This document shows, piece after piece, positions 27,641 to 32,909 of a stretch of DNA of 64,000 nt; positions within the stretch are counted from its first letter, which is position 1, and the number at the start of each line of letters is the position of its first letter. This DNA is from Microvirga puerhi (lineage in GTDB: Bacteria > Pseudomonadota > Alphaproteobacteria > Rhizobiales > Beijerinckiaceae). The stretch spans positions 186,001-250,000 of the forward strand of contig NZ_JAIRBM010000007.1 of the NCBI RefSeq assembly GCF_020089865.1, written 5' to 3'. The notes beneath the pieces were generated by a model. It searched no databases. It saw nothing but the letters and a program-made list of their open reading frames with translations, and was not told where the DNA came from. The position numbers and the translations under genes were made by a program.

Positions 27641-27712
27641 AGGGGCCGCGCGGTCATGTTCAATTGTTCCACGAGGCTGTCTCTGCTACCCAGAGAGAAG
27701 TCTCGTGATGGC

Positions 27713-28264
27713 ATGTCCGAACCGCGCATGATCGGGAATGGTCCGGAAGAGGTGAAGGCGGGTCTCGCCGGGCATTTGTCTCGGCTTTGGCGCTATGGGC
27801 TCGTGCTGACGGGTCGACGAGACACCGCCGAGGATCTGGTGCAGGCGACATGCGTACGGGCTCTCGAACGTGCCCATCAGTTCGAGCCGGGGACAAGACT
27901 CGACCGTTGGCTCTTCACGATCCTCCGCTCCATCTGGCTCAACGAAGTCCGCTCCCGCCGCATCAGGACCGGCGAAGGGATCGTTGATGCCGAGACTTTC
28001 CTGACCTTCAATGGCGCCGAGCAGATCGAAGAAGGCGTCCTGCTGCAACAGGTTCTGCGAGAGATGCAGTCGTTGCCCGAAACACAGAGGGAGGCGATCT
28101 TTCTCGTTTATGTAGAGGGTCTTGCCTATCGAGAGGCGGCGGCCGTTCTCGACATTCCGATCGGGACAATCATGAGCCGCCTCGCTGCGGCACGCACCAC
28201 GCTTGGTCGACTGAACGCGGACGCCGCGCCACTATCCCATTGGCCGGAGGCGAAGCATCCATGA
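27713..28264 (+). CDS. ECF-type RNA polymerase sigma factor
   Basis: The 183-residue protein has a sigma-2 region at about residues 22-85 (TAEDLVQATCVRALE, WLFTILRSIWLNEVR) and a sigma-4 region at about 115-165 (LPETQREAIFLVYVEGLAYREAA, GTIMSRLAAAR). It should direct polymerase to a small regulon. Start at 27713 is preferred because GAGAGAAG lies upstream; 27656 is possible. It overlaps the next gene by four bases (ATGA), the classic sigma/anti-sigma layout. Confidence 0.92.
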   Translation: MSEPRMIGNGPEEVKAGLAGHLSRLWRYGLVLTGRRDTAEDLVQATCVRALERAHQFEPGTRLDRWLFTILRSIWLNEVRSRRIRTGEGIVDAETFLTFNGAEQIEEGVLLQQVLREMQSLPETQREAIFLVYVEGLAYREAAAVLDIPIGTIMSRLAAARTTLGRLNADAAPLSHWPEAKHP

Positions 28265-29094
28265 CCGATGCCCCCCATCATGATCGCCCCTCGGATGAGG
28301 ACCTCGTCGCCTATCTCGACGGCGAACTCTCGTCGGATGCAAGGTTCCGAATTGCCAGGGCAGTGGCCGAAGATCATGAGCTGCAGCGGCGACTTATTCT
28401 TCTCTCCGGTGGTCAGCGACCCTTCCGGGACGCATTCGCGCCGCTTCTTGCCCAGGCTCCCGAAGACAAGCTGAAGGCCATGCTCGACGGATTGCCCGGT
28501 CCTGTCACGCCTGAGGAGGCCGCGCAGCCGACACGCCATAGCAGCAATCGCTGGAAGGCCCTGGCCGCTGGCCTCGCCCTCTTTCTTGCCGGCGCCGGCG
28601 CCGGATGGATGGGCTCGTCGATTGTTCGGCCCGCCTTGGAGCAACCAAAGGTCGCGACGGAATCAGATGATGACGATTGGCGCCAGTCTGTCGCCGCGTA
28701 TATCTCCCTTTATACGTCCGAAACATTGGCCAGCATTCCGGACGATGCACGAGCACAGGAACTGGAGATCGCATCGGTCAGAGCCAAAACCGGCCTCGCC
28801 CTTTCACCCCAGAAGCTCGCACTCCCCGACCTCACTCTGAAACGAGCCCAAGTGCTTGAATACGATCAGAAGCCTCTCGGGCAGATCGCCTACCTCGATC
28901 CTGAGAGCGGACCGCTCGCACTATGCATCATCACGGGTGGCGGACCGGATGCCGACAAAAGCACGGAGCAGAGGCTGGGCCTTAACGTCGTCTATTGGAC
29001 GAAGGCCGGGCGGAGCTTCATGTTGATCGGACGTGCCGCCATGCCTCGTCTCCAAAATTGGGCGGACGAGGTCTCGGGACGTCTGTCGGGGTGA
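28261..29094 (+). CDS. transmembrane anti-sigma factor
   Basis: The 277-residue protein begins with an anti-sigma-like acidic helix (SDEDLVAYLDGEL, residues 11-23), has one transmembrane helix at about 99-122 and a ~150-residue periplasmic domain. It should hold the upstream ECF sigma inactive at the membrane. The N-terminal domain has no cysteines, so the zinc-binding HxxxCxxC motif is missing and redox release is unlikely; the signal is probably sensed outside. It converges on the methyltransferase at 29102 with seven bases between stops. Confidence 0.85.
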   Translation: MTDAPHHDRPSDEDLVAYLDGELSSDARFRIARAVAEDHELQRRLILLSGGQRPFRDAFAPLLAQAPEDKLKAMLDGLPGPVTPEEAAQPTRHSSNRWKALAAGLALFLAGAGAGWMGSSIVRPALEQPKVATESDDDDWRQSVAAYISLYTSETLASIPDDARAQELEIASVRAKTGLALSPQKLALPDLTLKRAQVLEYDQKPLGQIAYLDPESGPLALCIITGGGPDADKSTEQRLGLNVVYWTKAGRSFMLIGRAAMPRLQNWADEVSGRLSG

Positions 29095-29101
29095 GGTTTT
29101 C

Positions 29102-29959
29102 TCATCGACTAGCATGCGGTTTGGCCGCGACCAGAAGACCATATCGCATCGACCCGGTCGTATAGGCCAGCCAGATCCGCGGCAGGCTCAAGGCGAATAT
29201 GCGGTGCCGGGCGCGGGCATCGCGCAGATAGCTTCGATATCGTCGATCAAGAAGGATCATCCGGACAACACGGGCGGCACAGATCGCCCAGGTGCGGCGG
29301 ACCTGCATGCTCAGATCGAAGAAGTCGCGAACTTCGAAACCTGCTTGAGTCGCCCATGAGCGATACTCGGCCTCGGTTCCCATGCTTGGGAGACGTCCTT
29401 CGCGGCAGATGGGCTCGAGAAGAAAACGCTCCTCCCAAGGCTTGGCATCGTCCTTCGCAAGCCAAGCGCAGACGGCGAGCCGCCCGCCGTCGCGCAAAGT
29501 TCGATAGGCCTCGTCGAAGAAGTGTTGTTTGTCCGTCATATGCTCCGAGCTCTCGACGGCAATGAGTGCATCGAATGTCGCCCCGTCGAAGCCGTTTTCC
29601 AGCCAATCCTGCTGCAGAAAGCGCAATCGCCCGTCCATGTCGCTTCGCAGGCGTGCCCGTGCCATCTGTGCGGATGACACGGTTACGCCCGTCGTGTGAA
29701 CGTCAAAGCTTTTAGTCAGCCATTCGGCCGTGGCGCCATAGCCGCATCCGATGTCGCAGATCTTGTCCCCAGGGTGCAATGCCAGTTCTTCCGCAATACG
29801 TGCGATCAGAGCGATGACGGCCTCCGCCGGGTCTTCGAGACCGGTGGTCCAAAGCCCGTGGTGGACATGATCACCCCAGATCTCCCGATAGAAGGGATCG
29901 AGCTCGTCGTAGTGGTCTGCAACCGACGCCAGGGTTTGGGGCGTCCTGGGCGTGATCAT
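29102..29959 (-). CDS. SAM-dependent methyltransferase of the type III PKS operon
   Basis: The 285-residue class I methyltransferase has SAM motif I ICDIGCGYGAT at residues 67-77 and resembles the tocopherol/cyclopropane-type C- and O-methyltransferases in its HHGLW start and AVESSEHM motif. It is the last gene of the four-gene operon and overlaps the flavoprotein gene by four bases. It probably methylates the polyketide product, but O- or C-methylation cannot be told from sequence. Confidence 0.85.
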   Translation of the reverse strand: MITPRTPQTLASVADHYDELDPFYREIWGDHVHHGLWTTGLEDPAEAVIALIARIAEELALHPGDKICDIGCGYGATAEWLTKSFDVHTTGVTVSSAQMARARLRSDMDGRLRFLQQDWLENGFDGATFDALIAVESSEHMTDKQHFFDEAYRTLRDGGRLAVCAWLAKDDAKPWEERFLLEPICREGRLPSMGTEAEYRSWATQAGFEVRDFFDLSMQVRRTWAICAARVVRMILLDRRYRSYLRDARARHRIFALSLPRIWLAYTTGSMRYGLLVAAKPHASR

Positions 29960-31128
29960 GACTGTCTCAAAACACGTTGAATGACCGCATCACTGAGCCG
30001 GGTGCGCCCGGCCACATGCTGCATGGCGGCTGGCCATGCCTGGAAGAGGCGAACGAAGCAGGATTGTGCCATTGGTCGGCCACTCGCCCCGTGGATCAGG
30101 CTGGCGATCCGAAACTGCCGGTGAATATCGACACGAAGCTGTCGATGAAAGACATCGCTCCTGCGGCCATATTGGAGGTAGGACGTTGCCGCAGCGAGGC
30201 CGGTATGCAGCGCGATCGCCATTCCATCGCCCGTGAACGAAGGGATGACCGCGAACTGATCACCAAGCCTGAACAACCCTTCGGGCTCCGAGCAAGGGGC
30301 ATAAACAAAACCATATGGGAGATGAGAGATCGCGAGTGGCTTAGAGAACGCCATCACGGCTCCCTCCAGTCGCATGGCAAGATGAGGGCAGTGCTCGAAA
30401 AGGTATTCTCGTAGTCCGCTCCAGCTCCTGCCGGCGGCATCGAACGATTGCCGGCTGATGAGAAGGCACAGGTTTGCAAGCCCGCCCTCGATCATCTGCA
30501 ATCCGGCATAGCCCCCGGGAAAGAGCAAAATCTCCACGGTGCCTTGGAGGGCGTCCTGCTGACGCTCAAGAAGGGTGGCGTGCATCTTGAAACCGATCAG
30601 ATCATCGCGAAACCCTTCGATCGGGCGCTTCGCACCACGAAGATCGTGCTTTCCGGTTGCAAGAAAGACCGTCCGGGCCCTCAGTTGCGAGCTGTCGCCT
30701 GAAAGACAGCAGCTTCGGTCCCGGAAATCGATGCTGCGTATCGTCATGCCGCGGCTGAGTGTTGCGCCGGCAGCGGCAGCTTGGGCCAGCAGCGCTTCGT
30801 CCAGGATCTTGCGCGAAAGGCCTCTTGCGCGAAACGGCAGATCCGCCTCTGCGATCGAATGGCCGCGAACGACCCGGACAGATGAGATTTCGCTGGCACC
30901 AAGGAGGTCCAGGTCGATTCCGAGGCGCGTGAGATATCTCTGTGCCTCGATGCTGAGAAATTCGCCGCAGACCTTATGGTGCGCCTCGCTCGTTCGCTCG
31001 ACGAGGAGAACCTGACGACATCCTGCTTCGGCAAAGCGGCAGGCGGCGGCGGCACCCGCCGGCCCTCCGCCGACGATCACCACATCGTTTACGGATTCGG
31101 CGGAGGTCACTTTAATCTGCTCACGCAT
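29956..31128 (-). CDS. FAD-dependent oxidoreductase, geranylgeranyl reductase/aromatic hydroxylase type
   Basis: The 390-residue flavoprotein has the dinucleotide motif GGGPAG at residues 20-25, the CGEF motif near residue 54 that is typical of the geranylgeranyl-reductase-like group, and a GDG motif in PSFTGDGMAIALHTG near residue 305. In related type III PKS operons such a protein hydroxylates the phenolic ring to a quinol. It overlaps the preceding methyltransferase gene by 22 bases and the next by four, which implies coupled expression. Substrate is inferred only. Confidence 0.83.
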   Translation of the reverse strand: MREQIKVTSAESVNDVVIVGGGPAGAAAACRFAEAGCRQVLLVERTSEAHHKVCGEFLSIEAQRYLTRLGIDLDLLGASEISSVRVVRGHSIAEADLPFRARGLSRKILDEALLAQAAAAGATLSRGMTIRSIDFRDRSCCLSGDSSQLRARTVFLATGKHDLRGAKRPIEGFRDDLIGFKMHATLLERQQDALQGTVEILLFPGGYAGLQMIEGGLANLCLLISRQSFDAAGRSWSGLREYLFEHCPHLAMRLEGAVMAFSKPLAISHLPYGFVYAPCSEPEGLFRLGDQFAVIPSFTGDGMAIALHTGLAAATSYLQYGRRSDVFHRQLRVDIHRQFRIASLIHGASGRPMAQSCFVRLFQAWPAAMQHVAGRTRLSDAVIQRVLRQS

Positions 31129-31823
31129 AGTCGAAAGGGAACGTGCCAGGAGATTTCGACGACCGAGGGATCGATCCCGGCCTCATCGATGATCTCTTCC
31201 CAATCGTTCCGCCGAAAGCTGCGGGCAATCGACACGGGTCCGTCGTGCTGCACGAAGCGATGCCAGTGGGCGAGGCGCGAGAGCAGGCGAAATGCATGGA
31301 TCGGGATGGCGTGGCGATGAAGATCGGCGATGAACCAGCCTCGGGTCGCCGTATCTTCCATCCAGCGGACGAAGGCGACAAGTTCCTGCTCAGTCATATG
31401 GTGTGCTGTCTGAGAGCAGAGCACGATATCAATCGGGTCCTCTGGGACGAAATTGAAGACGTTCCCCGTCAGATAGGTGATCGGCATGCCGGGAGGCGTC
31501 GCAGCCCGAGCGATGGTTTCGCTGAAGGGGTTGAGATCGATGCCTACGAGATTTACGGCGCGGCCGTGGCGCATGCTCCAGCGATGAATATGCCGCAGCA
31601 GATCGCCGTAGCCGTAGCCGACATCGAGGATCGTCAGCGGCTGTCCAGGCGGTTGCCGGCGGAACACGTGATCAAGCCATGCGAGGACGGGACGATGGGT
31701 GAGGGTGACGATGTTCACCTGCGACAGGTCTTTCAAGCAACCGTGGTAATCCTCGATGGATACGGCTTCGGTATCCATGAGCTCCGTCTCTCGGCTGCGT
31801 CGGGATAGATCAAGGCTCGTCAT
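31107..31823 (-). CDS. SAM-dependent methyltransferase, second of the type III PKS operon
   Basis: The 238-residue class I methyltransferase has SAM motif I ILDVGYGYGDL at residues 65-75, an acidic residue at the end of strand 2 (VGIDLNP) and the SQTAHHMTEQEL segment. Proteins of this type often stand next to type III polyketide synthases. It begins three bases after the PKS stop and runs 22 bases into the flavoprotein gene. An internal ATG at 31778 is an alternative start. Confidence 0.85.
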   Translation of the reverse strand: MTSLDLSRRSRETELMDTEAVSIEDYHGCLKDLSQVNIVTLTHRPVLAWLDHVFRRQPPGQPLTILDVGYGYGDLLRHIHRWSMRHGRAVNLVGIDLNPFSETIARAATPPGMPITYLTGNVFNFVPEDPIDIVLCSQTAHHMTEQELVAFVRWMEDTATRGWFIADLHRHAIPIHAFRLLSRLAHWHRFVQHDGPVSIARSFRRNDWEEIIDEAGIDPSVVEISWHVPFRLCVSRLK

Positions 31824-31826
31824 AGC

Positions 31827-32909
31827 TCAGCGCATCAGCTCGAAGCGGAAGGTTTCCGCGACCAAGCCGGGCCCGAAGGCCATTCCGAAGCCCCGTGCGG
31901 TCCCAGTCCACGATTGCATCATGCGACCGAGGACGAACATGAGAGTCGCCGACGACATGTTTCCGAAATCCCGCAAGACGCTCCTCGACCAGCGCAAGGC
32001 ATCCGGTGCGAGATCCAAGCCCTGCTCAACCGCATCGAGAACTGTTCGTCCTCCGGCGTGTACCGCCCAGAGATCGAAATCATCCTTGCCTTCCCCACGG
32101 AAGATCCCCTGGTCATCATTGCGCTCGGCCTCGCGACGAAGCGCATGTGAGATCTGTGCCGGAACTTCACCGGACAATGTCATCTCGAACCCGGCATTGC
32201 CGATGCGCCAAGTGATCAAATCCCGCGTGTCCGGAATGGTCGCGACGCGGAAGTCCTTGAGGGCTATTCCCTCAGGTCGGGACGTCACGAGACTTGCCGC
32301 GCAGCCATCACCGAAGAGGAGGGCGCTCAGCAGAACCTCGATGTTCGACGTTTCTTGGAGATGCAACGTGCAGAGCTCGATATTGACCACCAGCACCTTT
32401 GCCAATGGTTCCGAGCGCACGATGTGATGTGCGAGCTTCAGCGCGTTGACGGCGGCGGCGCATCCCATGAAACCGACCATCGTGCGCTCGACTGACGGAT
32501 CGAGAACGAGTGCGTCCATCAGCTGCTGATCGAGGCCAGGCGCCGTGAAACCTGTGCAGGAGGCGACGATCAGGTGCGTGATCGATCCTAGTTCATCGTC
32601 AAGTTGAAGTCCCGCGACGGCCTCTTCCGCGAGCTTGACCGCGTGAGTTTCAAAATGAGCCATGCGTGGGCCGGTCCCTGCAAAAAGACCCGGCCGGTAG
32701 AATCCTTGGCGGTCGGCCCCGACTTCAGGCTGTTCGGCGGGCTGAAGGGTGGAGTAGCGATGCTCGATGTCGGACCGCTGAACCATTCGCTTGAACAGGA
32801 TCTTGGTTTTCCGGTCAGGCAGAAACTGGTCGACGAAATCGATGAAGGTTCCGTGCACATCGTGCGTCGGAACGGCCGTCCCGATACGGTTGATATAGGC
32901 GCCTGTCAT
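31827..32909 (-). CDS. type III polyketide synthase (chalcone synthase-like)
   Basis: The 360-residue homodimer-type enzyme has the complete catalytic triad: Cys118 in VASCTGFTAPGLD, His284 in WAVHAGGRTVLD and Asn317 in DFGNMSSATL. It should extend a starter acyl-CoA with malonyl-CoA and cyclise it to a resorcinol, pyrone or related ring. It leads the operon with two methyltransferases and a flavoprotein, which points to a methylated phenolic or quinone lipid. Starter and ring type are unknown. Confidence 0.93.
   Translation of the reverse strand: MTGAYINRIGTAVPTHDVHGTFIDFVDQFLPDRKTKILFKRMVQRSDIEHRYSTLQPAEQPEVGADRQGFYRPGLFAGTGPRMAHFETHAVKLAEEAVAGLQLDDELGSITHLIVASCTGFTAPGLDQQLMDALVLDPSVERTMVGFMGCAAAVNALKLAHHIVRSEPLAKVLVVNIELCTLHLQETSNIEVLLSALLFGDGCAASLVTSRPEGIALKDFRVATIPDTRDLITWRIGNAGFEMTLSGEVPAQISHALRREAERNDDQGIFRGEGKDDFDLWAVHAGGRTVLDAVEQGLDLAPDALRWSRSVLRDFGNMSSATLMFVLGRMMQSWTGTARGFGMAFGPGLVAETFRFELMR

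Follow-up and report, generated by a model that had tools for sequence, protein, structure and literature searches.

A four-gene type III polyketide synthase operon in Microvirga puerhi, a genus variant of a widespread bacterial cluster

Clusters that combine a type III polyketide synthase (PKS), a methyltransferase and a flavin adenine dinucleotide (FAD)-dependent monooxygenase have been described in the Acetobacteraceae, where they have no known metabolite and where Microvirga is placed among the nearest PKS carriers (PMC8776678; papers are cited here by PMC identifier and from excerpts of their text). All of these clusters hold the same three enzyme classes as the locus described here, an operon in a 64,000-nucleotide stretch of Microvirga puerhi (contig NZ_JAIRBM010000007.1, positions 186,001 to 250,000; hereafter the window) that encodes a PKS, a methyltransferase (MT1), a flavoprotein and a second methyltransferase (MT2), but the excerpts describe no counterpart of MT2. 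The operon is a Microvirga variant, with one methyltransferase added, of this type of PKS cluster, which is widespread and has been noticed before. Lichenicoccus roseus, named in the same paper, carries a homologous locus (L052) in the order PKS-MT1-flavoprotein, with identities of 56%, 43% and 44%, respectively.

The Acetobacteraceae clusters are a nearer precedent for the window operon than srsABC of Streptomyces griseus, the parallel drawn in the initial annotation. In srsABC and the mycobacterial pkqABC, which were compared with the window by layout alone, a PKS is likewise followed by a methyltransferase and an oxidoreductase or hydroxylase, and the product is an alkyl benzoquinone (PMC9927152), but the window has a second methyltransferase and a Gram-negative host. 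The parallel stands for gene order and enzyme classes; the clade of the window PKS lies apart from the further type III PKSs that the genus holds. The hidABC genes for hierridins and a three-gene operon of Planctomycetota, compared by their descriptions, also bring together a PKS, a methyltransferase and an oxidoreductase, but the commoner order is methyltransferase-oxidoreductase-PKS, with hidC>hidA>hidB also occurring; an alkylresorcinol core has been shown for the Planctomycetota operon, and clusters with two methyltransferases are described (PMC8086630, PMC10896814). In Gimesia maris, a PKS, a methyltransferase and an FAD enzyme yield singly methylated alkylresorcinols, in which the methyl is probably bound to carbon, and methylation was seen on co-expression of both tailoring genes (PMC10896814). 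Within Microvirga, a type III PKS is reported from Microvirga brassicacearum, its partner genes unnamed in the excerpt (PMC6780248), and no description of the four-gene operon was found in the excerpts of literature on type III PKSs in this genus.

All four genes of the window operon lie on the minus strand, each as an open reading frame (ORF) with an ATG start and a TGA stop. The PKS (31827..32909, 360 residues; ORF and Pfam) is followed by MT1, a class I S-adenosylmethionine (SAM) methyltransferase (31107..31823, 238 residues; ORF, Pfam and NCBIfam), then by the flavoprotein, an FAD-dependent oxidoreductase of the monooxygenase / geranylgeranyl-reductase / halogenase fold (29956..31128, 390 residues; ORF, Pfam, NCBIfam and structural model), and finally by MT2, the Microvirga-type fourth gene, encoding a small-molecule SAM methyltransferase of the CMAS superfamily (29102..29959, 285 residues; ORF and Pfam). 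The PKS and MT1 genes are separated by 3 bases (31824-31826), MT1 and the flavoprotein overlap by 22 bases (31107-31128), and the flavoprotein and MT2 overlap by 4 (29956-29959). The genes, strand, gap and overlaps given in the initial annotation all match these ORF coordinates, and its enzyme classes (a type III PKS, two methyltransferases and an FAD enzyme) are borne out by Pfam and NCBIfam. Given this tight packing, the four genes probably form one transcription unit. Moreover, the profile matches of the four genes are spaced by 2-63 bases in 39 of the 39 loci measured, indicating that the four-gene layout is not due to chance; these loci represent 25 genomes, 14 of the 39 being named duplicates of the same contigs. 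In the 5.17 Mb host genome, the chalcone synthase C-terminal family is matched by the window PKS alone, whose nearest named relatives are from Microvirga (80% identity).

The window type of PKS is present in 30 of the 48 genomes of the genus group (G000-G047), and the order PKS-MT1-flavoprotein-MT2 is collinear in 26 of these 30, window included. From the 29 other genomes 30 loci were taken, of which 25, one per genome, were collinear, with no less than 90% of the profile matched for every gene. The exceptions are L112 (PKS and an MT1 stub), L113 (PKS-MT1 alone), L121 (on the contig of L046, Microvirga massiliensis; about one-third of MT1 left and MT2 absent) and L122 (MT2 absent). A plasmid of Microvirga terrae (L125; NZ_CP102846.1, 258070-260353) carries a second, decayed operon copy with a cut flavoprotein gene, and an intact copy lies elsewhere in that genome. 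Thus, the operon is sometimes lost piecemeal.

Across the same 48 genomes, type III PKSs are of the window type in 30 and of another type in 14, with both in 2 of these and neither in 6. The two types are rarely found together (Fisher p 1.7e-5, kinship between genomes ignored), which hints that they serve the same need. A type III PKS beside an isoprenylcysteine-type methyltransferase is what we take to be the BpsAB kind. This kind resembles the window operon in that the PKS is adjoined by a methyltransferase (annotated on a Rhizobium plasmid, and recognized on visual inspection after the L150 PKS), but the other PKSs of the genus are 29-35% identical to that of the window and lie on a far branch, and L149, L150 and L196 have no neighboring MT1 or flavoprotein relative.

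Beyond Microvirga, named loci were drawn from the best 80 of 85 PKS matches. PKS, MT1 and flavoprotein occur in this order on one strand in 59 of the 65 named loci outside the genus (2 with a cut or split flavoprotein), and this core was found in Pseudomonadota, Acidobacteriota, Myxococcota and a Planctomycetota bin. The six exceptions comprise three loci where the PKS stands alone (two of these at a contig end), one without MT1, one without the flavoprotein and one with the flavoprotein on the opposite strand. MT2 is absent from 64 of the 65, the match in L085 covering 39% of the profile. Seven further family or order mates carried the trio in six cases and the PKS alone in one. Among the loci examined, the four-gene order, which the initial annotation had proposed to look for in Hyphomicrobiales, is collinear in Microvirga only. 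Among 40 control loci with other or remote type III PKSs, some of whose stretches stop at contig ends, the trio was present in 5, a flavoprotein relative without MT1 in 5 (L226, L228, L230, L233 and L258) and neither in 30; two of the trio-bearing controls (L237 and L238) are clade members, and the other three (L221-L223) are the nearest kin at ~40% identity.

In a PKS tree of 94 rows, built without rows identical to earlier loci, the clade comprises 79 rows (support 100/99). The acidobacterial rows fall into a single clade (100/99), the window groups with 14 named Microvirga (99/97) and lies just outside those 14 (96/94), and L149 and L247, two other type III PKSs found in the genus, are on a distant branch. 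Six deeper Microvirga-group PKSs (G006, G023, G028, G030, G036 and G039) are missing from this tree, and several of its rows carry a long-branch warning. Several Acidobacteriota have extra genes between MT1 and the flavoprotein, one of which encodes a DUF2306 membrane protein in L070, where a YceI-like gene follows. In Sphingobium yanoikuyae, Novosphingobium pentaromativorans and Terriglobus (L185:6560-10879, L194:5557-9200, L110:1350-5778), an acyl carrier protein (ACP) gene and a ketoacyl synthase gene lie beside the core, which suggests ACP-borne acyl starters for the PKS; in N. pentaromativorans there is no methyltransferase between PKS and flavoprotein.

The window PKS exceeds the Pfam cut-offs (27) for the N and C domains of chalcone/stilbene synthases (PF00195, 74.5 bits; PF02797, 79.9 bits). 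As the initial annotation had stated, its Cys-His-Asn triad is complete (C150, H284 and N317), and it is invariant in all 101 aligned PKS rows, window included. The closest solved relative is Pks18 (1ted; E 1.1e-40 by single sequence, 2.2e-69 by profile), presumably a long-chain acyl enzyme, which has the same triad and aligns over almost the full length, but which is of the alkylpyrone kind and has Leu at the position of window W234. The latter residue is invariant in 101 of 101 rows and may be the equivalent of a resorcinol-favoring Trp at position 281 of ArsB, a placement that we assume from chalcone synthase numbering. Such a Trp is reported for ArsB, PkqA and a Streptomyces enzyme (PMC9927152, PMC6274091). 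ArsC (3vs8), sought as a reference for the Trp position, was absent among the 60 solved-structure matches listed for the PKS. A DpgA identity was rejected (116 bits against a cut-off of 425). The single Streptomyces plasmid PKS examined adjoins enoyl-CoA hydratases, and a sister record labels that PKS DpgA.

MT1 exceeds the Pfam cut-offs for Methyltransf_25, Methyltransf_11 and Methyltransf_23, and its nearest NCBIfam model, PRK06202, scores 114.7 bits, under the cut-off of 243. Among solved structures, its best single-sequence match has an E of 0.015, and a profile gives weak matches to many methyltransferases. The MT1 model (predicted local distance difference test [pLDDT] 96.2) has tied top folds, namely the C-methyltransferase CouO (Z 19.7, root-mean-square deviation [rmsd] 2.9, 205 aligned), NovO (19.6, 2.9, 206) and the peptide methyltransferase BpumL (19.2, 3.2, 210).

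The flavoprotein exceeds the Pfam cut-off for several FAD-binding families, and its nearest NCBIfam models both score under their cut-offs (geranylgeranyl reductase [GGR] superfamily, 84.2 bits, cut-off 158.8; flavin monooxygenase QhpG, 66.8 bits, cut-off 240). Its model (pLDDT 93.9) has 50 listed fold matches at Z 31.0-36.1, among them ChlB4 halogenase (Z 36.1, rmsd 2.7, 356 aligned), the monooxygenase TrlE (33.6, 3.1, 353), GGR-like 3oz2 (33.2, 2.7, 346) and two aromatic hydroxylases, 3-hydroxybenzoate 6-hydroxylase (32.0, 3.4, 359) and PHBH. WxWxIP is a motif of halogenases and YxWxFP one of GGRs; neither was found in any of 40 flavoprotein homologues. An identity as a flavin-dependent halogenase was rejected on the missing WxWxIP, and one as a GGR on the missing YxWxFP and the score below the curated cut-off. 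Relatives of the flavoprotein are annotated as FAD-dependent monooxygenase in six of the plasmid records examined, as an NAD(P)-binding protein in S. yanoikuyae and as hypothetical in Sphingobium TomTYG65.

MT2 exceeds the Pfam cut-off for CMAS and Methyltransf_11, and its nearest solved sequences are small-molecule methyltransferases (3bus, MitM, 5gm1, D-glucose O-methyltransferase). A cyclopropane fatty acid synthase identity was rejected (PRK11705, 71.7 bits against a curated 400), and the segment WGDHVHHG is one that we take to resemble plant gamma-tocopherol methyltransferase. Close MT2 relatives (61-71%) sit in Microvirga operons. Relatives at 51-54% occur in 4 of 297 genomes of the order, the host genome being counted in the 297, and in Croceicoccus, where the gene adjoins a cyclopropane-synthase-like gene; no PKS or MT1 relatives were found beside them in the stretches read from the four order-mates and Croceicoccus. 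MT2 relatives in this 51-54% range are also present on 11 Sphingobium plasmid records, of which L182 was the sole one examined; there, relatives of PKS, flavoprotein, MT1 and MT2 (54%) lie within 4.2 kb, both methyltransferases on the opposite strand. On a plasmid of Mesorhizobium sp. INR15 (L186:6001-10273), genes for a PKS, a methyltransferase, an FAD-monooxygenase and a 424-residue cyclopropane-synthase-family protein are consecutive, with transposase genes on both sides. Given the gene sets of L182 and INR15, a CMAS-superfamily methyltransferase may therefore have joined the core more than once.

On balance, we lean slightly toward a long-chain alkylresorcinol that is methylated, hydroxylated to a quinol or quinone, and methylated again as the product of the operon. 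In this predicted pathway, whose substrate, ring type, step order, methyl positions and cellular role all reach beyond the observed enzyme families, catalytic residues, packing and conservation, the PKS would be primed with a long-chain fatty acyl group, carried by either CoA or ACP, add three malonyl units and close the ring to a 5-alkylresorcinol. MT1 would then C- or O-methylate the ring, the flavoprotein would hydroxylate it to a hydroquinone oxidizable to a benzoquinone, and MT2 would place a second methyl on the hydroxylated ring. In favor of this pathway, MT1 and the flavoprotein accompany the PKS in the 59 of 65 named loci noted above, while the trio is missing in 35 of the 40 controls. 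The intact triad, the kinship with Pks18 as a long-chain acyl enzyme, W234, the aromatic hydroxylases among the fold matches and the monooxygenase annotations of the flavoprotein, the ACP and ketoacyl synthase genes beside the core, and the methylated alkylresorcinols of Gimesia also speak for it. Of the initial annotation, the enzyme classes, the operon-like packing, the extra methyltransferase and, in broad terms, a methylated lipid of phenolic or quinone type are supported, but a phenol or quinone ring is unproven, as is the membrane activity that it held probable, and a pyrone is possible. Several observations weigh against our reading. No product is known for the window PKS clade. W234 is weak evidence because most type III PKSs outside the clade share this Trp (36 of 40 outside the clade and its near kin, 41 of 45 with these counted in); Pks11, named an alpha-pyrone synthase, has it, and CylI, a reported alkylresorcinol producer, lacks it. 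Pks18 is itself called alkyl pyrone-making (PMC5916927). Halogenases head both the sequence-profile and fold lists of the flavoprotein, although WxWxIP is absent. Finally, the excerpts on Gimesia report no hydroxylated product, and their authors leave the role of the FAD enzyme open (PMC10896814).

The PKS might instead close a lactone to make long-chain alkylpyrones, which MT1, the flavoprotein and MT2 would decorate, a possibility that we rate well short of even. Besides the activity ascribed to Pks18, this is compatible with PMC8776678, whose excerpt allows a pyrone or a resorcinol and, citing Hug 2019, notes a methyltransferase and a flavin monooxygenase in some myxobacterial clusters as well, and with four controls from the phylum of genome G381 (L226, L228, L230 and L233), in which a flavoprotein relative, without MT1, lies 2.5-3 kb from another type III PKS. 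However, Pks18 differs from the window in having Leu in place of W234, and a ring-hydroxylating flavoprotein would suit a resorcinol better than a pyrone. In addition, at an identity of at least 50% the clade is found in just 3 of 112 genomes of that phylum (Enhygromyxa), and the widespread myxobacterial alkylpyrone PKS is therefore probably a different enzyme. Enhygromyxa salina was scored alkylpyrone-positive in a preprint (PMC12224551, excerpt), but since its genome holds a second type III PKS (37% identical), this does not settle which PKS is responsible.

Two further alternatives concern the tailoring genes. The flavoprotein might reduce a double bond of the alkyl chain, in the manner of a GGR, or halogenate the ring, and the pathway would then end in a methylated phenol, either saturated or halogenated, rather than in a quinone. 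The GGR superfamily is its best NCBIfam match and halogenases top its profile and fold lists, but that NCBIfam score is under the cut-off, the YxWxFP and WxWxIP motifs are missing from 40 of 40 homologues, and flavoprotein monooxygenases and hydroxylases follow within 3-5 Z units; we regard this as unlikely. It appears more doubtful still that MT2 is a passenger, a neighboring methyltransferase that serves another substrate and is co-translated with the core by chance. MT2 is absent from 4 of the 30 PKS-holding genus genomes and from nearly all named loci elsewhere (64 of 65), and the stretches read around its 51-54% relatives, in the four order-mates and Croceicoccus, hold neither a PKS nor an MT1 relative. 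Against this stand the 4-base overlap in the window, the 8-23 bases between the profile matches in the 39 loci, the collinearity in 26 of 30 genomes, and the 54% relative that shares the 4.2-kb stretch of L182 with PKS, flavoprotein and MT1 relatives.

A bolder extension of the alkylresorcinol-to-quinone pathway, which we offer as a long shot, is that Microvirga makes a doubly methylated polyketide alkyl-hydroquinone/benzoquinone as an additional redox carrier of its membrane, the C-methylase of the hydroquinone ring being MT2. If so, such polyketide quinones would be common among Gram-negative bacteria of soil, given that Acidobacteriota, Acetobacteraceae and sphingomonads share this core. 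The core spans several phyla of soil bacteria with no product assigned in the literature found, and the compact four-gene set of a culturable Microvirga would offer a route to product assignment and to learning whether polyketide quinones occur beyond Actinomycetota.

Genes for an extracytoplasmic function (ECF) sigma factor and a putative anti-sigma factor (27656-29094) converge on the operon, the facing stop codons being 7 bases apart. Relatives of the sigma (76%) and anti-sigma (54%) proteins adjoin the degraded operon copy of L112, and at L151 such relatives and a tetratricopeptide repeat (TPR) gene adjoin a different type III PKS. Promoter dyads shared between the upstream region of the PKS and those of the sigma, DoxX and TPR genes were within the range of 20 shuffles and gave no support to a role of the sigma/anti-sigma pair as operon regulator. 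Scans for sigma-70 promoters and terminators found 0 and 2, against 1.1 and 3.2 expected from shuffles. Among 31 aligned upstream regions, that of the window PKS lacks a block seen upstream of the PKS in the Microvirga group (L126-L148), which consists of TGCGAC[T/C]TCT followed by GCCCTAT and whose first part is exact in 22 of the 31 and near-exact in L127.

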